Source: Alloprevotella sp. oral taxon 473 str. F0040 (lineage in GTDB: Bacteria > Bacteroidota > Bacteroidia > Bacteroidales > Bacteroidaceae). From it: a stretch of 64,000 bases of DNA. The position numbers and the translations under genes were made by a program. Below, in pieces: positions 25,838 to 45,613 of the stretch (positions are counted from its first letter, which is position 1; each line of letters opens with the position of its first letter). Location of the stretch: contig NZ_KB290714.1 of the NCBI RefSeq assembly GCF_000318095.2, positions 369,875-433,874 of the forward strand, given 5' to 3'. The notes beneath the pieces are model-generated. The model did no database searches and was not told the DNA's origin. It saw only the letters and a list, made by a program, of their open reading frames with translations.

Positions 25838-28360
25838 TTATCCTTCTTGAGAGGTGGAGGCAGAAGATGAGGCTGTGTCACCACCATCTTTGCTTTCTCC
25901 TTGAGTAGCATTGGTGCGATTTCCGCCACGTCGGCGGTTGTTGCCTCCGCGACGTCCACCACGCGAGCGATTATTCTTGCGCTTCTCTTCTTGCGCAGCA
26001 ACATTTGGTGCTTCGTCAGCCTTAGTAGGCATAGGATTGTTGGTAGGAGTCGTTTCTACTACCATGAAATCATCAATGTCTACATCGAGTTTGAAGGTTT
26101 CTGCAAGTTCCTGCTGCACCTTTTTTACTTGACGTTGACGAGCTTCTTCCTTATGCTTCTCCGCTTGTTCTTGGAGTTTGCGCTCTGCCTTTTGAGGGCG
26201 GTGGCTCTGTTCGGCAGGAGGCAGCGTGGTGTTGGTAAATGCTGCAGCATTTTGTCGTTTATTCTGACGACGTGCACGCTTTTTCTCTTGCTCAGTACGC
26301 ACTCGATTAACTTCCCCTTCCGCAGTGTTATTTGCTTCTTGGGGAGTTTCCGCAGTGTTTTCTTCCGTTTGTTCAGCTGGCATTTGAGGAGTAGCCACCT
26401 CTTCTGTAGCTTCTTCCACTACTGTCTCTTCGGTAGGGAGAGTATCTGCGGCCCCCTCTGCCATTGCTACGGGGGGGGCCACCTTCTCGTCAGAGATTTG
26501 AGGAAGATCTTCTGTAATAATTATTGCAGTATCGGAAGGCTCAGAAATCTGTTGTTCCATTTGAGGAGTTTGCGCTGAAGTCGCAGACACATTCTCCATC
26601 ATTTGAGGTTCCTCCTGAGCAACTTCTGTTGCAACGGAAGTTTGTTCAGCAACAAAAGAGGGCGTTTCCTCTGTGGCTACAGGCGCATCACTAGGCGTAA
26701 ACTCACAGGGATGGTCGGCAGCTTCCGTCCATTGTTCGAGTTCATGTTGCAATTCTTCCATGGAAGCCTTAGGTGCTTCAGCAGCGTTTTTCACAACTTC
26801 ATTTCGGGATTGTTGTGCGCGTTGCTTCTGCTGCTTTTCTTCTGGAGATTCCACAAACTCTACTGTGATGATGGTGGGAGTTTCTTCCACAGGTTGGGTT
26901 GGCTCCTTAGTCATCTCAATGGCAGGCGTTGCCACTTCTTCAGCAGGAACCTCGATACTAGTTTGAGAAGCTCTTTTAGCGCGTGGCTGATCAGCAACCT
27001 TCTCTTCGCGAGAATGTTGAACTGGACTCTGAGGCATCATTTTCGTTTCTGCCACAGCTGCTACCACTTTAGCCACTTCCTCTGTAGTTTTTTCTGAGGA
27101 CTGTTGAGGCATTTCTGCCTTCACTTCTGGCTTCTCCGCTGCTACTTCCAGCTTCTTGGGTTTCTGTGCATGAGGAGTAGAAGCCTTCTGTACACTACGT
27201 TCCTTACGTTCTTCTTTGGCTACCTGTTGAGCCGCGCGTTCCTCACGATCGCTCTTGCGTTCAATGCGATGATCATTTTGCTCTTCACGAGGACTCTTGC
27301 GTTCTTCGCGATTTTGCTTCGTGTTGTCCCGCTCATGCTTGCGCTTCTCTTCACGGACAGCATTGTCACTTTTTCGCAGATTGCGGTCTTCGCGCTCAGC
27401 ATTATCGTTGTTTTCTTTGCGCTCGTTGCGTTCCGCCTTTTCGTTTTTGCGTTCTTGCTTACGCTCATTGCGTTCGCCACGATTGTTGTTGCGCTCAGTC
27501 TTAGCAGCACCACGTTCTTTGGCAATTTGTTCGTCAATCTCTGAGATGTGAGGAAGCGCAAAGAACTCTTCTGCTCCCATAGCTGTGCGCTTCTCTTTGG
27601 CACGGAACATTGCATCCAAGAAGTCTGCATCACGACGCATCTGAGTGAGCGCGTCTTTAGCTGCTGCTTGGTGACTTTCTTTCTTAGAGAATCCCTTGCC
27701 TTCTCCAGCAGGGATACCTTCTATGACCACCGAAGTGTGGAAAGATGGGCTAGTGCTGTTGGAATTGTTGGAGATATTGTCTACAAAATCGAGATGAATG
27801 CGATTCTTTTGTTTCCATTCCAAGAGTTTACTCTTGAAGTTCACCTCCTTGTTTGCCACCGTGTCGAGATCGAGCACTGCACCAATGATGCGTTTCTCGA
27901 TGAATTGAAACGCATAGCGGAAGCCGCGGTCGAGATAGATCGCTCCCATGAGGGCTTCAAAGCTGTTGCCTTCGAGGTAGGAATTGTGTGTGCGACCGTG
28001 GGTTTGACTTTGGATGAGACGATCTATACCCAACTCCTTCGCCAGTTTGCCGAGCGATTCGCGTGATACAATCTTGGAACGTGTGTTAGTAAGAAAACCC
28101 TCACGCTTGTTGGGATATTGTCGATAAACGATGTGGCTCACGACCGTTTCGAGCACGGCATCACCGAGAAACTCCAAACGTTCGTTGTTGAGGGGCTTGT
28201 TGCCCGTTTTCTTGGAGCGGTATTCGTGAGATTTATGGGCAAAGGCTGTGCGATACAAGTCAATGTTGTGCGGACAGAAGCCCATGATTTGATAGAGAGC
28301 GGAGCGAAACTCTTTGTCTTTACTGAAGAAGAGTCTAGCTCTGTCAAAAATATTTTTCAT
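25838..28360 (-). CDS. rnc: Ribonuclease III with a disordered C-terminal extension of about 595 residues
   Basis: 840 residues, against about 220-330 for ordinary RNase III. Residues 1-165 form the endonuclease domain: signature ERLEFLGDAVL at 60-70 (Glu63, Asp67) and the second acidic site in NSFEALMGAIYLD (132-144, Glu135). Residues 174-242 form the dsRNA-binding domain (FKSKLLEWKQ, GKGFSKKESHQAAAKDAL). From about 245 the protein is low-complexity: a Glu/Arg/Asn/Lys-rich stretch (270-390), a long acidic Glu/Thr/Pro/Val stretch (390-700), a basic coiled-coil-like part (700-760) and an RGG-rich end (RSRGGRRGGNNRRRGG). The reading frame is open throughout. The gene follows fabF after 117 bases, as in the fabF-rnc order common in this phylum. 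Confidence 0.93.
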   Translation of the reverse strand: MKNIFDRARLFFSKDKEFRSALYQIMGFCPHNIDLYRTAFAHKSHEYRSKKTGNKPLNNERLEFLGDAVLETVVSHIVYRQYPNKREGFLTNTRSKIVSRESLGKLAKELGIDRLIQSQTHGRTHNSYLEGNSFEALMGAIYLDRGFRYAFQFIEKRIIGAVLDLDTVANKEVNFKSKLLEWKQKNRIHLDFVDNISNNSNSTSPSFHTSVVIEGIPAGEGKGFSKKESHQAAAKDALTQMRRDADFLDAMFRAKEKRTAMGAEEFFALPHISEIDEQIAKERGAAKTERNNNRGERNERKQERKNEKAERNERKENNDNAEREDRNLRKSDNAVREEKRKHERDNTKQNREERKSPREEQNDHRIERKSDREERAAQQVAKEERKERSVQKASTPHAQKPKKLEVAAEKPEVKAEMPQQSSEKTTEEVAKVVAAVAETKMMPQSPVQHSREEKVADQPRAKRASQTSIEVPAEEVATPAIEMTKEPTQPVEETPTIITVEFVESPEEKQQKQRAQQSRNEVVKNAAEAPKASMEELQHELEQWTEAADHPCEFTPSDAPVATEETPSFVAEQTSVATEVAQEEPQMMENVSATSAQTPQMEQQISEPSDTAIIITEDLPQISDEKVAPPVAMAEGAADTLPTEETVVEEATEEVATPQMPAEQTEENTAETPQEANNTAEGEVNRVRTEQEKKRARRQNKRQNAAAFTNTTLPPAEQSHRPQKAERKLQEQAEKHKEEARQRQVKKVQQELAETFKLDVDIDDFMVVETTPTNNPMPTKADEAPNVAAQEEKRKNNRSRGGRRGGNNRRRGGNRTNATQGESKDGGDTASSSASTSQEG
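26471..26478 (-). repeat. C8 homopolymer tract inside the RNase III tail
   Basis: Eight consecutive C on the coding strand at about codons 628-630 (Val-Ala-Pro-Pro-Val). Slippage by one base would shift the frame and remove about the last 210 residues, including the RGG end, while leaving the catalytic domains intact. Confidence 0.9.
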
Positions 28361-37047: not shown

Positions 37048-37494
37048 TTAGCTCAATAGTTCTTTGACCTTGGTGCTAATGGCACGACCGTCAGCGCGAC
37101 CTGCTAAGCGAGCTGAGGCTACGCCCATCACCTTGCCCATCTCTTTGGGAGAAGTTGCGCCCACTTCAGCGATGATTTCGCGCAGTGCAGCAGCGAGTTC
37201 TTCCTCTGTGAGAGGTTTGGGGAGGTAAGTCTCGATGACAGCTACCTCAGCTAGTTCGCCTTCAGCCAAATCGGGGCGGTTTTGCTCTGTGTAAAGCTGA
37301 GCCGTGTCGCGACCTTGCTTTGCCAGTTTGGCGAGAATCTTCATGGCAGCTTCATCGGTGAGTTCGCCATTGCTGCCTGGCGCGGTTTTGGCTTCGATAA
37401 AATATTTCTTGATGTTGCGCAGTGCTTGGGTGCGCACCTTGTCTTTGCCCTTCATAGCGGCCATAATGTCTGTGCTGATTTGATCGAAAAGCAT
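37048..37494 (-). CDS. GatB/YqeY domain protein
   Basis: 148 residues, standalone YqeY protein, similar to the tail domain of the amidotransferase subunit GatB; its role is not settled. Opening MLFDQISTDIMAAMKGKDKVRTQALRNI and closing MGKVMGVASARLAGRADGRAIS are typical. It is the last gene of the division cluster, 78 bases after the second ftsZ, in the position usual for Bacteroidales. Confidence 0.92.
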   Translation of the reverse strand: MLFDQISTDIMAAMKGKDKVRTQALRNIKKYFIEAKTAPGSNGELTDEAAMKILAKLAKQGRDTAQLYTEQNRPDLAEGELAEVAVIETYLPKPLTEEELAAALREIIAEVGATSPKEMGKVMGVASARLAGRADGRAISTKVKELLS

Positions 37495-37572: not shown

Positions 37573-38847
37573 TTATTCAGTTTCGTCAGCGAGAATCTCA
37601 ATAGGATTACGGCTTCCTCCAATTTCGTGGAGCTGCGCTAGGTCGCTGTCAGTGCGACGCACCGTGGGACGTGCTTCTAACTGAAGTGTCAGTTCTTCAT
37701 TGTCTAGCTCGTCATCTGCGAAGATGTAGATGCGAGGACGACGACGTGTTTTCTCATTGTTCGGGTCGTAGTAGCGTCCTCGGCGTTCGTCACGTATCTT
37801 CTCTTGTTCGCGCGACTGTGGTGTTTCTTCTTCTGCTGCAGGCTTCTTGTGGAAACCCGATGCGATGATGATGACTTTGATTTCTTCTGTGAGTCGAGGA
37901 TCTTCCACAAACCCATGCTTGAAGTCGGGATTTGTCTCAAAGCCTTTCATGAAGTCATCGACTTCATTCAACTCTTCTACCATGAGAGCATGACCTGTGC
38001 CTTCTGGTGGACTGAAGATGGCTAGGCGTAAGGACTGACTCTTCTGAACATCCGTGTCGTTGAGTAGAGGAGAGTTGAGTGCACTTTGGATTGCTTCGCG
38101 CAATCTGTGTTCGCCTTTTCCAACTCCAGATGACATGATGGCTGCTCCTCCTCCACGAAGACAGGTGTCAATGTCTTGGAAGTCAAGATTCATGCCGAAG
38201 AGACCTTCACGACCGCGCATCTTGATGACTTCAACAATCGAGTTAACGGCGTTGGTGAGTGTCTGATCAGCCTTGCGGAAGGCATTCAGCATCGAAAAGT
38301 CAGAGTAGATTTCAAGCAGTCGTTGATTGTTGATGACAAGTAGCGTATCTACTTCTTTGGCAATGCGAGTTACCCCATCAAGAGCTTTGTCTATCTGCTT
38401 GGGCATCTCGAACTTGAAAGGGATGGTGACGATACCCACAGTGAGGATGCCCAACTTCATCGCTTCACGAGCAATGATAGGAGCAGCTCCAGTGCCTGTG
38501 CCACCTCCCATGCCTGCAGTGATAAAGAGCATGTTGGTGTCGGTGCCAAGAGCTTTGATGATTTCGTTCACATGCTTTTCGGCAAGTTCAGCTCCCTTTT
38601 CTGGACGTCCACCTGCTCCCAAACCAGGTCCGAGTTGCACTTGGTGGGCTATGGGAGAATCTTCGAGTGCTTTGGAATCGGTGTTGCACACGATGAAGTG
38701 TACGCCTTCAATACCCTCACGATACATGTTGGCCACGGCATTACCACCACCGCCACCTACACCGATGACCTTGATATTGGCAGGTAGTGCCGGTGCTGTA
38801 GGAGGCAATTCTATTTCGAGAGAAGAGCTGCTGAAGTGTTCTGACAT
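37573..38847 (-). CDS. ftsZ: FtsZ, second tandem copy (divergent)
   Basis: 424 residues, tubulin-like GTPase. The GTP-binding parts are intact: VIGVGGGGGNAV, CNTDSKAL, the tubulin signature GMGGGTGTGAAP and VTIPFKFE. The T7 loop NLDFQDI keeps the Asn, Asp and Asp that complete the neighbour's active site, but a five-residue insertion (segment RGREGLFGMN against HGIIN in the other copy) precedes it. The C-terminus has the phylum's second part (YIFADDELDNEELTLQLEARPTVRR) and ends in IEILADETE; the E. coli-type PAFLR peptide is not seen. It follows the other ftsZ by 157 bases. Roughly half of the GTPase residues match it by eye. It may be a second division protein or a regulator of the first. 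Confidence 0.93.
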   Translation of the reverse strand: MSEHFSSSSLEIELPPTAPALPANIKVIGVGGGGGNAVANMYREGIEGVHFIVCNTDSKALEDSPIAHQVQLGPGLGAGGRPEKGAELAEKHVNEIIKALGTDTNMLFITAGMGGGTGTGAAPIIAREAMKLGILTVGIVTIPFKFEMPKQIDKALDGVTRIAKEVDTLLVINNQRLLEIYSDFSMLNAFRKADQTLTNAVNSIVEVIKMRGREGLFGMNLDFQDIDTCLRGGGAAIMSSGVGKGEHRLREAIQSALNSPLLNDTDVQKSQSLRLAIFSPPEGTGHALMVEELNEVDDFMKGFETNPDFKHGFVEDPRLTEEIKVIIIASGFHKKPAAEEETPQSREQEKIRDERRGRYYDPNNEKTRRRPRIYIFADDELDNEELTLQLEARPTVRRTDSDLAQLHEIGGSRNPIEILADETE

Positions 38848-38948
38848 ATAGTGAGACGGCGTTAGGATAGATGAAGCCTTAAAGGGGAGTTGTCTGAAAG
38901 GCTGTACAGAAGATGCGGAAGGCTTGTGTGAGTTGTCCAGTTAAGGCT

Positions 38949-38997
38949 TTGCCACAGCTAACAGAAGATTATACAATACATCAGATAGCTGTGGCAA
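38949..38997 (-). other. Hairpin between the two ftsZ genes
   Basis: Perfect 12-bp stem TTGCCACAGCTA (38949-38960) with 38986-38997, loop of 25 bases. It begins 8 bases after the stop of the first ftsZ. No T-run follows, so partial termination or RNA processing is more likely than full termination. Confidence 0.75.
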
Positions 38998-39004
38998 GGG
39001 GAGA

Positions 39005-40420
39005 TTAGTTATCTATAATCTCTATGCCTTGTGTCTTGCTGCGGATTTCGCTGAGTTGTTCCTTCGTGCGACGGCAAGTGGGGATTGCTTCTACGAGAGA
39101 AACTAGTTCTTCGTTCTCAAGATCTTCGGGTTCGAAGAGATAAATTTTGTAGAATCGGGGTTGTACGCCCTTAGGATTGTTGGTTTGATAGTAAAGACCA
39201 CGACGTTCTGCGCGTTCGTTTTCCTCTTGTGCGTTGCGTTGTTCCTCTTCTGAGTTCTTGGCTGCAAGGTGTTCTTCCATGCCAGGGATAGAGTTAACAT
39301 CGAAACCTGTGGCGAGGATGGTGACTTTAACCTTCTTGCCGAGTGTGCGGTCGATAGAAACACCCCATTTAGTCTCGACATCTTTGCGGAACTCTGACAT
39401 GAATTTGTCCACTTCGTTGATTTCTTCCATCATCAACTCTTGGGGTTCGTTGTCTTCGTCCGTGAGATCGTTGAACGAAATAGAAAGGAGTATCTTCGTC
39501 GAACTTTTGATGTCGCGGTTGTTGAGCAGTGGAGAATTGAGTGCATCTTCAATCGCTTCTCGTACACGATTCTCCCCTTCGCCATAGCCTGTGCTCATGA
39601 GGGCGATACCTCCTTGGCGCAACACTGTGCAGACATCTTGGAAGTCAAGGTTGATGATACCATGCATCGTGATGATCTCTGCGATAGATCGTGCAGCAGT
39701 AGAGAGCGTTGTATCAGCCTTTTCAAACGCCGAACGGAAAGTGAGGTCGGGATATACTGTGCGCAACAATTCATTGTTGATTACCAGAAGCGCATCCACC
39801 TCTTTGGCAATAGCATCTACACCATCAAGTGCTTGGTCAATCTTTTTATTCCCCTCGAATTGGAAGGGAATAGTGACAATACCTACGGTGAGTATGCCGC
39901 GTTCTTTGGCTTCATGTGCAATGACAGGGGCAGCACCTGTGCCTGTGCCACCACCCATACCAGCAGTGATAAACACCATCTTGGTGTTGGCATCGAGCAA
40001 GGCACGGATTTGTTCGATGCTTTCGTTGGCTGCTTGTCGGGCGCGTTCAGGGCGGTTGCCTGCACCAAGACCATCTTTACCAAGTTGCACCTTATAGGGT
40101 ACTGGCGAATCGTGTAGTGCTTTGGAGTCTGTGTTGCAAACTGCGAAGTTTACCTCCTTGATACCAGTGCGATACATGTAGTTGACAGCGTTACCACCAC
40201 CACCACCCACACCAATCACTTTGATGATGCTAGGGGTTGTCGCAGGATTGCCCATGTCTACAATCATATCTTCGTTGGAAGTAGTAGATGCTGTAGTAGC
40301 AGGTTCTGCCACGACTTCGGTAGTGTCGTTGGCATTATCTGAGAAAGAGACCATAGTGTCATCATCAAAGCTCATGTCGATGATGGGATCCTCTTGAAAG
40401 TTGTCGTTGTTCTCGCTCAT
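39005..40420 (-). CDS. ftsZ: FtsZ, first copy (canonical position)
   Basis: 471 residues. Acts as the ring-forming GTPase of cell division. An acidic N-terminal extension of about 65 residues precedes IKVIGVGGGGGNAVNYMY. Signature GMGGGTGTGAAP and T7 loop INLDFQDV are normal, and the helix-to-T7 spacing equals that of E. coli FtsZ. The C-terminal part carries the charged linker (AQEENERAERRGLYYQTN) and YLFEPEDLENEELVSLVEAIPTCRR. It follows ftsA by 271 bases, as expected in the cluster, so I take it as the main ftsZ. Confidence 0.95.
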   Translation of the reverse strand: MSENNDNFQEDPIIDMSFDDDTMVSFSDNANDTTEVVAEPATTASTTSNEDMIVDMGNPATTPSIIKVIGVGGGGGNAVNYMYRTGIKEVNFAVCNTDSKALHDSPVPYKVQLGKDGLGAGNRPERARQAANESIEQIRALLDANTKMVFITAGMGGGTGTGAAPVIAHEAKERGILTVGIVTIPFQFEGNKKIDQALDGVDAIAKEVDALLVINNELLRTVYPDLTFRSAFEKADTTLSTAARSIAEIITMHGIINLDFQDVCTVLRQGGIALMSTGYGEGENRVREAIEDALNSPLLNNRDIKSSTKILLSISFNDLTDEDNEPQELMMEEINEVDKFMSEFRKDVETKWGVSIDRTLGKKVKVTILATGFDVNSIPGMEEHLAAKNSEEEQRNAQEENERAERRGLYYQTNNPKGVQPRFYKIYLFEPEDLENEELVSLVEAIPTCRRTKEQLSEIRSKTQGIEIIDN

Positions 40421-40691: not shown

Positions 40692-42044
40692 CTATTCGTT
40701 GTCGCTGACGAGAGAAGAGAGGTATTTTCCCACACGCTTAAAGATGTTTTCTTTTGCGGGTTTGGGAGTCTCTGGTTCTGCTGGTTCTTCGACAGCTGGA
40801 GCTACAACAGGAATCTCTGCGTTAGTTTCTGCTGCCTGCGAATGTTCTTCCGTGAATAGCGTAGGTTCTTGGGGAATAATGCGTTCACCACCATTGCAGT
40901 CGATTTCTCCAGTCTCAATAATAGCCAATCCAACATTATAGGTGCCACTTTGATTAAAGCGATGATCATCTGCAATGACACTCAAACGAGGAGGAGTATT
41001 AACGATGCGAAGATTGAGGTCTTTGAAATGTTGCTCAAAAGCTTTGCTGATGTTGCGTAGTTGTGCGGCTCCTCCTGTGACGATAACACCATTGACGAGT
41101 TTGTCGAAACTGATATTGGCACGTTTAGCTTGTTCTGCCACGTTTTGAATAATCTCTTCCACGCGGGCTTCGATGATTTCTGCTAAACTCTTTTGACTAT
41201 ATTTGCGACCGCCTTCGAGAACAATGTGATTTTCTTCGCTGTCATCCAAGCTTTGGAAATCAGGATAGCCGTAGGTGCGCTTCAATTCCTCGGCTCGGTT
41301 TTCGTCACAATTGAACACTTTCACAATGTCCTGCGTGATGTTGTCGCTACCCAAGGGAATAACGGCTAGATGACGCAATAGGCGGCTCTTATACACGGCG
41401 ACAGTGGTGGTTTGGCTACCCATGTCCACAAATATACAACCGGAATTGCGCTCTTGCTCTGTCGGAATCACATTGCCCAAATCAGTAGTAGAAAGGGTGA
41501 GTTTTGCAATCGTGATGCCAGCACGACGGAAGCATGTTTCGATGGTCTCAATCACCGTACTGTTGCAAGATATATTGAGGAAGTCGGCACGGATGTTATC
41601 GCTCTGCATCCCCACAGGTTCGTTGGTAATCATAGTTCCCACACGATACTCCAAAGGAATAGCTTCCAAATAGAGATGATCATTGCTGCGTGTTTCTTGG
41701 TTGTGTTCAAGCACCATACGCACCACATCAGGTGTAATTGTTTCCCGTGAGCTGAAAGGGATGGTCACGCTATTGGTTACAGAACGAATACCCATGCAGT
41801 TGACCGATACATAGAATTTCCCTATGTTGCAGTTTATTTGTTCCTCCAGATGTTCTTTGATGTTTTTCAGACAATTGGTCATTTTTTCCAGGTTGTAGAC
41901 GCGACCTTTGCTGATGAACTCTGAAGAAAGTGCGGAGGTGAAGGAGAGCACCTTGATGCTTCCGTCAGTGGTCTTCTGACCTACGATACCAGTGGTCTGG
42001 AATGATCCGAGGACGATGGCTGCAATGAAGCTGTCTTGTGGCAT
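40692..42044 (-). CDS. ftsA: Cell division protein FtsA
   Basis: 450 residues, actin-like ATPase that tethers FtsZ to the membrane. Visible: N-terminal strand AAIVLGSFQTTGIVG, phosphate-2 motif FVDMGSQTTTVAVYK, adenosine motif VIVTGGAAQLRNI, a Pro/Glu/Ala-rich linker (about residues 400-430) and a C-terminal amphipathic helix IFKRVGKYLSSLVSDNE for membrane binding. It lies between ftsQ and the first ftsZ. Confidence 0.94.
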   Translation of the reverse strand: MPQDSFIAAIVLGSFQTTGIVGQKTTDGSIKVLSFTSALSSEFISKGRVYNLEKMTNCLKNIKEHLEEQINCNIGKFYVSVNCMGIRSVTNSVTIPFSSRETITPDVVRMVLEHNQETRSNDHLYLEAIPLEYRVGTMITNEPVGMQSDNIRADFLNISCNSTVIETIETCFRRAGITIAKLTLSTTDLGNVIPTEQERNSGCIFVDMGSQTTTVAVYKSRLLRHLAVIPLGSDNITQDIVKVFNCDENRAEELKRTYGYPDFQSLDDSEENHIVLEGGRKYSQKSLAEIIEARVEEIIQNVAEQAKRANISFDKLVNGVIVTGGAAQLRNISKAFEQHFKDLNLRIVNTPPRLSVIADDHRFNQSGTYNVGLAIIETGEIDCNGGERIIPQEPTLFTEEHSQAAETNAEIPVVAPAVEEPAEPETPKPAKENIFKRVGKYLSSLVSDNE

Positions 42045-42176: not shown

Positions 42177-42911
42177 CTAGGGATGCTGTTTGATGCCAAT
42201 CACTTGATTCTCGTAGGCCACAGAAATGGCTTGATAGCGATTCCATCCAACATTGGGCAATACTTTTTCGTAGAAAGCTCGGAGGTTGCAAAGTTTTCGG
42301 TCGAAGTTCTCCGCTTTCCCTAAATGTACCAGAGCATTTCCTACGCGGAGCACCAAATCAATATCTTGATTGGGTTGCACATGGATTTGCATCACCTGAT
42401 TGTTCCAAAAATCATCTTGACTCAACAACTCGCCTAAAGCGATGAGTCTTTTCTTTACGAAATCATTAGTGACTTGTCCTGTCACTACGGGCAGGTCGGC
42501 TTCATAACCGCGGGCTGCCATGGGAAAACCTTTACCATCCACATAGTAATCGTCGCCATTGTCTGCCATGATACGCAGAAGTGGAAGGCGTTGCACGACA
42601 AATACATTGACATTTTCGCCAGGTGTCTTCATGCAGATGGCTTCGCGGATAAAGGGATCGCTCTGCAATTTTTGCTGCATCTGCACTAAATCCACATCTT
42701 TCATACACTTGCCAATGGGGTAGAGGCCAGTCTTGCGCAACATTAGGTCAACATCTTTGCCTGTGATGAGGGTGGCTTGAGCACTATCTGCAATCACAAT
42801 GTTGAGATTTCTGCACTGCGCAGTGTCTTCGCGCGTGATGAAAGTGAAAAACGCGAAGATTAAATAGGCAGTCATGCCAAAGAGCATCAGAAGTTTGAAC
42901 AGTGGACGCAT
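42177..42911 (-). CDS. ftsQ: Cell division protein FtsQ
   Basis: 244 residues from the ATG at 42911-42909 (MRPLFKLLMLFGMTAYLIFAFF), which gives one membrane helix near the N-terminus as in FtsQ; a longer frame to 43100 lacks sense and overlaps murC. The periplasmic part carries a POTRA-like segment (TGKDVDLMLRKTG, DPFIREAICMKTPGENVNVFVVQRLPLLRI) and the FtsQ beta domain (YYVDGKGFPM). It is in the divisome position between murC and ftsA. Confidence 0.88.
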   Translation of the reverse strand: MRPLFKLLMLFGMTAYLIFAFFTFITREDTAQCRNLNIVIADSAQATLITGKDVDLMLRKTGLYPIGKCMKDVDLVQMQQKLQSDPFIREAICMKTPGENVNVFVVQRLPLLRIMADNGDDYYVDGKGFPMAARGYEADLPVVTGQVTNDFVKKRLIALGELLSQDDFWNNQVMQIHVQPNQDIDLVLRVGNALVHLGKAENFDRKLCNLRAFYEKVLPNVGWNRYQAISVAYENQVIGIKQHP

Positions 42912-43026
42912 GAAATGTGAGCTGCAGAGGTAGGTGTGGGAGAGGCATTCACAAGGAGGTGAAGTGTTATCTCGAAGACAGGTACTCTCCATCTGAAGTC
43001 TACGAGGTCTCTCTCGAGAGAATTGG

Positions 43027-44409
43027 CTAAGCGTTAGCTTCTTGTTTTTTGAGGAGTATATCCGTGAGCTGAGGGCAGAAAGTATCGGCATCTCCAGCAC
43101 CTAGAATTACCAACACATCGAAGTCACCTTCCGAAATGATTTGTGGCAATTCAGATAGATGCGCCATTCGCTTAGTCATATCAGGACGTAGACGATCAAA
43201 TATGAGTTGTGAAGTAACACCTTCAATGGGCAACTCTCGAGCAGGGTAGATGTCGAGCAGAATCACTTCGTCGAGTAGTGAGAGGGAGTCTGCAAAATCA
43301 GAGTAGAAATCGCGTGTACGTGTGTAGAGGTGAGGCTGGAAGATTGCTGTAATTTTGCGACCGTCAAACACCTCACGTAGAGAAAGGATGCTCTGTCTGA
43401 TCTCTGCTGGATGATGAGCATAGTCACTGAGGAAAACGCAGCGGTCGTTTTTAATCTTAAAATCAAAACGTCGATCCACCCCTCCAAAAGAGAGCATCGC
43501 TGCGCGAATCTCTTCGGCAGAAACCCCAGCTAGTTGTGCCAGTGCGCAAGCAGCAATACCATTGTCAATGTTGATGCTCACAGGCACACCGAGTTCAATG
43601 TCAGCGATGTTGCCTAAGGGAGACACCAAGTCGAAGACGATGCGGCCTCCACCGATGCGGATGCGTTCAGCGTGAAAATCACCTTCTGTGCGACTATAAT
43701 CGTAGCGACGAACTCCAGGCTGGAGTCGTTCTTCAAATCGCAAACCGCGATGCACGACCAATGCGCCACCAGGTTGGATGAGCGAAGTGTAGTGTGCAAA
43801 GCTCTCGAGGTAGGCCTCTTCCGTGCCGTAGATGTCCAAATGGTCAGCATCGGCAGAAGTTATTGCAGTGGCATAAGGACGAAGATAGTGGAAAGAGCGA
43901 TCAAATTCATCCGCCTCAATCACCACATACTCACTGGTCGGTGAGAGCAGATAATTAGTGCCATAGTTCTTCGTGATACCGCCTAAGAAAGCATTGCAGC
44001 CCACTTTACTTTGGTGTAGCAAATGAGCAGTCATGGCTGAGGTAGAAGTTTTGCCATGCGTACCCGCTACACAAAGCCCTTTCATAGACTGAGTGAGGGT
44101 GCCCAATACTTGTGCTCGCTTGTGAAGTTCAAATCCATTTTTGCGAAACCAAGCCATTTCTTGATGGTCGGCAGGAATTGCAGGAGTGTAGACCACTAAG
44201 GTTTGTTTGGGATCACGGCAAGGAGCAGGAATCAACTCCGGATTATCTTCAAAATGAATCTCTATGCCTTCAGCTTCTAGGGTGTCGGTGAGGGTAGAAG
44301 GGGTGCGATCGTATCCAGCCACAAAGAGACCATGCTGGCGGAAATAGCGTTCGAGCGCACTCATGCCGATACCACCGGCACCTAAAAAATAGACAGCATT
44401 AAAATTCAT
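43027..44409 (-). CDS. murC: UDP-N-acetylmuramate-L-alanine ligase
   Basis: 460 residues. Adds L-Ala to UDP-MurNAc in the cytoplasm. Opening YFLGAGGIGMSALERYF, P-loop GTHGKTSTSAM, EADEFDRSFHYL, the middle-domain DADHLDIY and C-terminal DYAHHPAEIRQSI with FQPHLYTRTRDF are all present. It starts 85 bases after murG and is followed by ftsQ after 115 bases. Confidence 0.96.
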   Translation of the reverse strand: MNFNAVYFLGAGGIGMSALERYFRQHGLFVAGYDRTPSTLTDTLEAEGIEIHFEDNPELIPAPCRDPKQTLVVYTPAIPADHQEMAWFRKNGFELHKRAQVLGTLTQSMKGLCVAGTHGKTSTSAMTAHLLHQSKVGCNAFLGGITKNYGTNYLLSPTSEYVVIEADEFDRSFHYLRPYATAITSADADHLDIYGTEEAYLESFAHYTSLIQPGGALVVHRGLRFEERLQPGVRRYDYSRTEGDFHAERIRIGGGRIVFDLVSPLGNIADIELGVPVSINIDNGIAACALAQLAGVSAEEIRAAMLSFGGVDRRFDFKIKNDRCVFLSDYAHHPAEIRQSILSLREVFDGRKITAIFQPHLYTRTRDFYSDFADSLSLLDEVILLDIYPARELPIEGVTSQLIFDRLRPDMTKRMAHLSELPQIISEGDFDVLVILGAGDADTFCPQLTDILLKKQEANA

Positions 44410-44494: not shown

Positions 44495-45613
44495 CTACTC
44501 CACCTTCTGTTGGGCTAGTGCAATGGCAAACTCTGCAATGTCACGTGCCGCATTGGGTTTTGCTAGTTTCAGTGCGTTAGCTGAGAGCTGTTGTAGTGTA
44601 GGCTCATCACGTACCGTAGCCACTGCTAATTCAAGCAATGCGCTGGGAGCATCCGCATCCGTGACATAGCGTGCAGCATCTTTGTTCACCAATGCTAGCG
44701 CGTTGTGTGTTTGGTGATCTTCTGCCACGTTAGGTGAGGGAACCAGGATAGAAGGCTTGCCCAGCAGGCAAATTTCACTGATGCTTGAAGCTCCTGCTCG
44801 ACTCACCACCAAATCGGCCGCAGCATAGGCGGCACTCATGTCGCTCACAAATTCCGTGACGTGGAGTTGTTGAGGTTGAGTCGTTTGAGACAATCGTTCT
44901 TGGATATTCCCACTGTAAAACTTGCCCGTTTGCCACAATATCTGCACATCCTCTTGTTGGGTCAGCCAGTCGAGGTGATTGAGTACACTCTCATTGAGTG
45001 TGCGTGCACCAAGGCTGCCGCCAATGATCAAAATAGTCTTCAAATCAGGGCGCAATCCCAGTTGCTGGCGCGCTTCTTGTGGGGAAAGACTATGGTGTAA
45101 TAGGTTTTGGCGCACAGGATTGCCAGTCAGCACGATGCGGTCTTTAGGAAAAAAGCGTTCCATGCCTTCATAGGCCACGCAGATTTTTTTAGCGCGCTTG
45201 GCAAGAAGTTTGTTCGTCACACCAGCATAAGAATTCTGTTCTTGTAGCAAGGTGGGGATCCCCATTTTACCACTTACATTGAGAGTAGGGCCACTGGCAT
45301 ATCCCCCTACACCCACGGCAACCATGGGCTTGAACTCCTTGATAATGCGTTTCGCCTTGTTTTGAGAACGCCAGAGTTTGAGAAGAACACCAAAGTTGCG
45401 CCACAATTTTTTGCGGTCAAATCCCGCTACTGGTAATCCGACGATGCGATAACCTGCTGCGGGCACGCGCTGCATTTCCATGCGTCCTTCAGCACCGACG
45501 AAGAGTATTTCTGCTTCGGGGCGTAAGGCTTTTATTTCGTTAGCAATAGCGATGGCTGGGAAGATGTGTCCACCTGTGCCTCCACCGCTGATGATGACTC
45601 TCAATTCGTTCAT
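44495..45613 (-). CDS. murG: Undecaprenyl-PP-MurNAc-pentapeptide-UDP-GlcNAc GlcNAc transferase
   Basis: 372 residues, membrane-associated GT-B enzyme making lipid II. Motif SGGGTGGHIFPAIAIANEI at the N-terminus, GGYASGPTL, LLQEQNSYAGVTNKLL, IIGGSLGAR and SRAGASSISEICLLGKPSILVPSP (donor site) are intact. It is the first gene of the cluster here; the usual upstream neighbours (ftsW, murD, mraY) are absent from this window because tyrS occupies that position. Confidence 0.96.
   Translation of the reverse strand: MNELRVIISGGGTGGHIFPAIAIANEIKALRPEAEILFVGAEGRMEMQRVPAAGYRIVGLPVAGFDRKKLWRNFGVLLKLWRSQNKAKRIIKEFKPMVAVGVGGYASGPTLNVSGKMGIPTLLQEQNSYAGVTNKLLAKRAKKICVAYEGMERFFPKDRIVLTGNPVRQNLLHHSLSPQEARQQLGLRPDLKTILIIGGSLGARTLNESVLNHLDWLTQQEDVQILWQTGKFYSGNIQERLSQTTQPQQLHVTEFVSDMSAAYAAADLVVSRAGASSISEICLLGKPSILVPSPNVAEDHQTHNALALVNKDAARYVTDADAPSALLELAVATVRDEPTLQQLSANALKLAKPNAARDIAEFAIALAQQKVE

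Follow-up and report, generated by a model that had tools for sequence, protein, structure and literature searches.

The division cluster of Alloprevotella sp. oral taxon 473 str. F0040 was analysed in a stretch of 64,000 nucleotides (contig NZ_KB290714.1, positions 369,875 to 433,874), hereafter called the window, and two complete, divergent ftsZ genes lie in tandem within this cluster. All coordinates are positions in the window, and the loci are all on the minus strand. The first gene, ftsZ1 (39005..40420), encodes a canonical, slow-evolving FtsZ of 471 residues, and the second, ftsZ2 (37573..38847), encodes a divergent FtsZ of 424 residues. The gene order was murG (44495..45613), murC (43027..44409) and ftsQ (42177..43100; PF03799) upstream, followed by ftsA (40692..42044; PF14450, PF02491 and TIGR01174), ftsZ1, ftsZ2 and yqeY (37048..37494; PF09424), which ended the conserved cluster. 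The genes murG and murC were named by reading the sequence, and their orthologues occupied the same place in relatives. The two reading frames between ftsA and yqeY were exactly as given in a preliminary description of this DNA. FtsZ1 and FtsZ2 were 51% identical over 401 positions and were the only two PF00091 matches found in the assembly, which was 96.7% complete.

Both proteins scored above the Pfam cut-offs for the GTPase domain (PF00091; 139.5 bits for FtsZ1 and 138.5 bits for FtsZ2) and for FtsZ_C (PF12327; 59.5 and 38.6 bits). FtsZ1 passed the ftsZ equivalog TIGR00065 with 308.2 bits, whereas FtsZ2, with 289.2 bits, narrowly missed the curated cut-off of 295.2 bits that NCBI uses for naming FtsZ. 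FtsZ2 was therefore regarded as an FtsZ paralogue by descent and not as a functional equivalent. TIGR00065 matched all 33 FtsZ2 of alignment A1 at E 0.001 or better, and, among solved structures, the best sequence matches were to chains that bear the name cell division protein FtsZ (for FtsZ2, E 5e-66). The T4 signature GGGTGTG, the Asn/Asp/Asp of T7 and the tail block NEEL...PT.RR, which the preliminary description had ascribed to both proteins, were all present. The T7 catalytic loop was located at 39635..39652 in FtsZ1 (N257, D259 and D262) and at 38173..38190 in FtsZ2 (N220, D222 and D225). The loops (T1–T4, T7 and others) are given their established FtsZ names. T3 is at the top of the subunit and T7 at the bottom, and together they form the GTPase site between two subunits.

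The residues of the active site were counted in 37 FtsZ2 and 54 FtsZ1 rows, with both copies of G034 and the rows without the N-terminal motif left out (G, L, f and g labels denote genomes, loci, families and genera of the compared samples). Both T7 Asp residues were kept in 37/37 FtsZ2 and 54/54 FtsZ1. The T7 Asn was kept in 53/54 FtsZ1 and in 26/37 FtsZ2, that of the window included, and was absent in the other 11. The core residues of the GTP site were invariant in all 37 FtsZ2 (G70, G72–G75 and N77 of T1; N96 and D98 of T2; GTGTG of T4), and one T4 Gly (position 157) was replaced by Asn in a single FtsZ2. At the level of sequence, these residues support the prediction, made in the preliminary description, that both proteins of the window are GTPase-competent. 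The T3 loop, QLGKDGLGAGNRPE in FtsZ1 (40046..40087) and QLGPGLGAGGRPE in FtsZ2 (38599..38637), was one residue shorter in 36/37 FtsZ2 versus 2/54 FtsZ1. Moreover, its Asn was changed to Gly, and the Thr of the S9 'ATG' motif to Ser, each in 37/37 FtsZ2 versus 2/54 FtsZ1. The two exceptional FtsZ1 rows with the T3 and S9 changes were the single cluster FtsZ of G005 and G043. With loop limits set by hand, columns of at least 95% identity made up 57% of the GTPase loops and 17% of the other core in FtsZ2 (Fisher p 5e-11), versus 82% and 45% in FtsZ1. A five-residue insertion before the T7 loop of FtsZ2 (38194..38208) occurred, among 118 compared rows, only in the window species and its nearest relative G003. 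The AlphaFold2 model of FtsZ2 had a mean predicted local distance difference test (pLDDT) score of 80.9, and the insertion region (residues 211–220) had a mean of 59.

The distribution of the pair was evaluated in 58 genomes of the genus, one of which was that of the window. Two adjacent PF00091 matches were counted by eye in 36 of them. FtsZ2 was present in 38/58, namely 37 genomes placed by trees and G050, in which a fragment at a contig end had an FtsZ2 as its best match; among the genomes at least 90% complete, it was present in 14/19. According to these counts, the pair is not peculiar to this genome and is largely an ordinary feature of the genus, an outcome that the preliminary description had named as counting against its view. 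FtsZ2 was directly behind FtsZ1 on the same strand in 36/37 genomes, with a median gap of 71.5 bp (range −8 to 803). The remaining genome, G056, kept both FtsZ, with FtsZ2 and yqeY on another contig apart from FtsZ1. An ftsA-ftsZ locus without FtsZ2 was found in 18/58 genomes. G034 had an adjacent pair of a different type, in which the divergent copy came first and which was not counted, and G020 (55% complete) had no PF00091 match, which completed the 58 (38 + 18 + 1 + 1). An additional FtsZ elsewhere in the genome was found in 5/18 genomes without FtsZ2 (G002, G015, G016, G018 and G032) versus 2/38 bearers (G007 and G033), with a Fisher p of 0.029 when the genomes were treated as independent despite their kinship. 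Hence, the loss of FtsZ2 may sometimes be made good by an FtsZ encoded elsewhere.

In a careful tree of 50 rows, the 12/12 sampled FtsZ2, which did not include that of the window, formed one clade (support 99/99; 98% of 200 bootstrap trees). In a quick tree of 114 rows, a group of 40 rows contained all 37 FtsZ2, the window's included, together with the first copy of G034 and two standalone copies; its support in the Shimodaira–Hasegawa-like approximate likelihood ratio test (SH-aLRT) was 99. The window's FtsZ2 was also inside the same group in a quick tree of 176 rows. Rows that were cut, deleted or very divergent (the first copy of G052, G050, L113 of G002 and L115 of G043) were dropped from the trees. 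On a species tree of MurC, YqeY and FtsA (LG+G4; 60 rows, comprising 32 FtsZ2 bearers, 19 genomes without FtsZ2 and 9 outgroup rows), the presence of FtsZ2 needed seven changes, at least five of which were forced by well-supported branches. These seven changes and the single FtsZ2 clade suggest one gain and about six losses in the genus. This count serves as a guide, since one of the three tree proteins, FtsA, takes part in division and since g13 and g26, which have divergent copies of their own, were treated as genera without FtsZ2.

Judged from the sequences, FtsZ2 stems from a single duplication that is no younger than the base of the FtsZ2-bearing part of the genus. The tree proposed in the preliminary description for dating the duplication yielded the single clade. 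The approximately unbiased (AU) tests were compatible with more than one date; they covered 48 rows with 12 FtsZ2, leaving out the window's FtsZ2 and the divergent first copies of g13 and g26. A duplication inside the genus, with the FtsZ2 clade joined to all FtsZ1 of the genus, was not rejected (p-AU 0.383), and neither was a tree in which FtsZ2 was joined solely to the FtsZ1 of the genomes that bear it (p-AU 0.0913). Of the FtsZ2 marks, 5/7 were shared by the divergent copies of g13 and 4/7 by those of g26, and FtsZ2 grouped with these copies in the 176-row tree (SH-aLRT 95). The shared marks and this grouping would place the duplication before the origin of the genus. The affinity may be due to attraction or convergence, because all of these branches are long and the order of the copies differs.

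In the early-branching members G005 and G043, the only cluster FtsZ (L116 and L114, respectively) carried 3/7 FtsZ2-derived marks, namely the short T3, the T3 Gly and the S9 Ser. Joining these two proteins to FtsZ2 cost 1.3 log units (p-AU 0.45), and holding them with all FtsZ1 of the genus cost 24.1 log units (p-AU 0.105). Neither tree was rejected, and neither grouping appeared in any of 1000 bootstrap trees. An FtsZ2-type protein may have become the sole cluster FtsZ in these genomes. The silence of the bootstraps, the absence of the other four marks and the better fit to the FtsZ1 profile (652 bits for L114 and 640 bits for L116, versus 575 and 574 bits with that of FtsZ2) speak against it.

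The ratio of nonsynonymous to synonymous substitution rates (dN/dS) was estimated by the NG86 method in 11 species pairs. FtsZ2 gave 10 values of 0.043–0.345, all below 1, and FtsZ1 gave 8 values of 0.007–0.106; the values are rough because dS exceeded 1 in many pairs. In the 7/7 pairs with both values, the ratio was higher for FtsZ2 than for FtsZ1. FtsZ2 is evidently under purifying selection. The earlier view of an old and maintained duplication was thus borne out by the clade support (99/99), the dN/dS range (0.04–0.35) and the catalytic Asp residues (37/37). In the 35 species with both proteins, FtsZ2 had a larger mean p-distance than FtsZ1, by a factor of 2.6 in each of the GTPase and C-terminal domains, 3.4 in H7 and 3.2 in T7-H8. 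The tail block was found in both FtsZ1 and FtsZ2, the latter keeping a recognisable version of that of FtsZ1, and the final residues varied between copies and lineages. The C-terminal tail and linker of FtsZ2 had mean p-distances of 0.65–0.85 between species. An I-x-F ending was counted by eye in most FtsZ1 outside the window's subclade and in only about 11/35 FtsZ2; the FtsZ1 of that subclade were mostly without any shared C-terminal ending. A joint switch of the two C-terminal peptides from lineage to lineage, which had been considered, was poorly upheld by these counts.

Adjacent copies were also searched for in 198 genomes of the order, requested at a completeness of at least 90%, in which 29 others with at least two matches were re-searched. 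Pairs or triples in or directly beside the cluster were found in 12/197 other genomes, belonging to 8/108 other families (f13, f19, f28, f62, f65, f77, f83 and f96). Three of the 12 (G449, G483 and G551) had three copies, and yqeY was between the copies in G589. The statement that a single ftsZ is normal in Bacteroidales therefore holds for most members of the order and fails for these 12. In the family sample of 201 genomes, 59 of other genera with at least two matches were re-searched, and adjacent pairs were found in seven of them (six of g13 and one of g26), with the divergent copy first. In the phylum sample of 147 other genomes, all outside the order, 12 had at least two matches, and the copies were far apart in G676 and G691, the two with positions listed. 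In the 176-row tree, in which many deeper branches were weak, the f83 pair were sisters (99), apart from the f28 and f62 copies and from FtsZ2. More than one origin of the pairs is likely because of this separation.

The copies of these other families also differed in detail. At L222, L223 and L224 (f28 and f62), ftsA was followed by three consecutive ftsZ genes with differing C-terminal tails. Their first copies grouped at 99, their second copies grouped at 97 with a first copy from f77 and a single FtsZ from f91, and their third copies had no resolved position in the 176-row tree. In f19, f65 and f96 (L226–L231), the first copy ended in a tail of the 'LF(D/S/E)(D/E)' type, after a Trp in 5/6 cases. 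The second copy of f19 and f65 had an ending nearer, with exceptions, to the '...N(S/A)(F/Y)L...VD' of the order's single-copy members.

Cells with two FtsZ are known from other groups. According to PMC8142252, bacterial Z rings are built of a single FtsZ, and in Arabidopsis one FtsZ restrains the assembly of the other and requires its own GTPase for this restraint. The chloroplast FtsZ1 and FtsZ2 resemble the present pair in that two diverged FtsZ are kept together and one may restrain the other; both are GTPases there, and both carry the core GTPase residues here. The chloroplast pair differs in its separate eukaryotic origin and in an effect of one FtsZ on the assembly of the other that was shown there and is presumed here. 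The archaeal FtsZ1 and FtsZ2 (Haloferax, PMC8187382; Odinarchaeota, PMC12583498) are likewise two FtsZ in one cell, which differ in their roles or membrane tethers, a division of labour with separate tethers. Unlike the archaeal pair, both copies of the genus fell among the FtsZ of Bacteroidales, in trees that contained no archaeal rows. A bacterial survey (PMC9871819), whose FtsZ tree kept one sequence per order, reports few bacteria with two ftsZ. There, too, a second ftsZ suggests subfunctionalisation; the additional copy is outside the division and cell wall (dcw) cluster, whereas ftsZ2 is inside the cluster and in tandem here. The other pairs and triples of the order resemble the present pair in that the additional ftsZ, the second or the third, lies within the division cluster or immediately next to it. 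They differ in that they probably arose by more than one separate duplication, that the divergent copy is first in g13 and g26, and that some tails are quite different. No report of an in-cluster ftsZ pair in Bacteroidales was among the papers listed in searches of the open-licence literature. Such a pair is ordinary in the genus, recurrent in the order and unusual among bacteria as far as the survey (PMC9871819) goes.

The reading favoured here, with a probability of roughly 0.5, is that FtsZ2 is a selected second FtsZ that takes part in the FtsZ1 ring, where its altered GTP turnover would tune the dynamics of the ring. The copolymerisation or ring control considered in the preliminary description is thus plausible. 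FtsZ1 would be the main ring builder, as its conservation suggests, and FtsZ2 would enter the same protofilaments; we infer both the co-assembly and the co-expression. FtsZ2 has the motifs with which its top face would bind GTP and its T7 loop, with both Asp residues, would meet the GTP of the neighbouring subunit. A changed turnover is suggested by the positions of the changes, since T3 holds the fixed ones and T7 those that recur. The fixed T3 change, together with an altered T7 in many species, would shift the GTP turnover rate at FtsZ2-containing junctions, and this shift would tune subunit turnover and treadmilling. The tuning would be dispensable on evolutionary time, given the roughly six apparent losses of FtsZ2 on the species tree. 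The precedent is the Arabidopsis FtsZ that acts on the other through its own GTPase, and the retention of both genes in G056, despite the separation of FtsZ2 and yqeY from FtsZ1, was counted in favour. Several observations weigh against this reading. FtsZ2 is 6 bits under the equivalog cut-off, its losses speak against a central role, and the case for its co-assembly, expression and localisation is indirect. Its extreme C-terminal peptide is variable, so FtsZ2 may not bind FtsA as FtsZ1 does. Furthermore, the divergence in the H7/T7 interface (3.4 and 3.2) is slightly above that in the rest of the core (2.6), which leaves some room for a separate FtsZ2 polymer.

Such a polymer is central to a division of labour like that of haloarchaea, without co-polymerisation, in which FtsZ1 would place and build the ring and FtsZ2 would polymerise separately, with an anchor of its own or at a distinct stage, for example constriction. 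The strong divergence of the FtsZ2 tail and linker and the clearly different tails of tandem copies in other families of the order are in keeping with it; it is nevertheless rather unlikely, given that FtsZ2 retains a recognisable FtsZ1 tail block and was lost in several lineages, where another FtsZ may sometimes compensate (5/18 versus 2/38). That FtsZ2 only raises the total amount of FtsZ, as an extra dose or backup interchangeable with FtsZ1, would agree with its operon-like position, complete core active site and repeated losses. The fixed FtsZ2-specific T3 and S9 changes (36–37/37) and the greater divergence point to a different job, and interchangeable copies would be expected to diverge less or to vanish quickly, which makes this account improbable. 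That FtsZ2 opposes FtsZ1 by capping or poisoning its filaments is more improbable still: the T7 Asn is absent in 11/37 FtsZ2 and the insertion precedes T7 in the window species and G003, but both catalytic Asp residues are kept in 37/37, and a cap would presumably need neither both faces nor a GTPase. The greater divergence and the losses could also be those of a decaying duplicate or an assembly artefact, which is scarcely credible for an open gene beside FtsZ1 in 36 assemblies that is under purifying selection in 10/10 estimable pairs.

The interest of the locus moves to the recurrent phenomenon rather than the single locus, because the pair is largely ordinary in the genus and recurs in the order. 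What a second FtsZ contributes is a matter of current study in both plastids and archaea, and the genus offers comparisons through a long-kept in-cluster pair, natural losses of FtsZ2 and a branch with an intermediate-type single FtsZ. That further families of the order have such arrangements, in some cases as three copies and with differing tails, suggests that Bacteroidales are the place to look. It is tentatively proposed that Bacteroidales repeatedly evolved division-cluster-encoded Z rings of two or three kinds of FtsZ, as bacterial counterparts of the plastid two-FtsZ ring. The copies would be specialised in the T3 and T7 loops in this genus or in the C-terminal anchor peptide in f19, f28, f62, f65 and f96, and the sole cluster FtsZ of G005 and G043 might be of the FtsZ2 type.

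The acidic N-terminal extension of about 65 residues, which the preliminary description had reported for the first copy, was present in the window's FtsZ1 (residues 1–64; 40229..40420). It was specific to the window species and G003 and was not a general trait of FtsZ1. The extension was predicted to be disordered: the AlphaFold2 model of FtsZ1 was weak (mean pLDDT of 65) and was used solely for this region, in which residues 1–63 scored below 50. A second copy of a short motif of the genus, 'IIDM / IVDMG', was seen in it by eye. Elsewhere in the genus, the N-terminal region had mostly about 20 residues (52 in G009), and it had 45–50 in three species without a tandem second copy (G002, G031 and G032). 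On these lengths, the extension was rejected as a mark of the ftsZ pair. An inverted repeat seen by eye between ftsZ1 and ftsZ2 (38949..38997), with arms of 11 bp around TATAAT, was considered as a regulatory hairpin, and this was dropped because the repeat was not seen by eye in the nearest relative G003.

Standalone paralogues of FtsZ, encoded at a distance from the division cluster, were found at L067, L087, L105, L107, L130, L132, L134, L136 and L139, and also at L111 and L109. The first nine had a T7 loop of the form NRD(F/Y)xDV. An amphipathic C-terminal stretch, defined by a moment of at least 0.5 and a shuffle p of at most 0.05, was found in 7/9 of these and in both L111 and L109, and in 0/55 FtsZ1, 0/37 FtsZ2 and 0/29 single FtsZ; L141 of G143, cut by the contig, was left out. 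The standalone FtsZ with this ending could possibly anchor themselves to the membrane. L113 of G002, a standalone FtsZ of the NRDF kind, was seemingly without the stretch from the T1 loop to the T4 signature.

FtsA of the window was about 32–53% identical to its orthologues in the genus and 88% identical to that of G003, whereas MurC was mostly 67–83% identical to its genus orthologues. FtsA thus appeared as a fast-evolving partner of the paired FtsZ. Farther along the window, a gene at 25838..28360 on the minus strand encodes a protein of 840 residues, which is unusually long for RNase III. Its RNase III and dsRNA-binding domains were confined to the first 240 residues, and the remaining 600 or so were of low complexity and charged, with an RGG-like stretch at the end.

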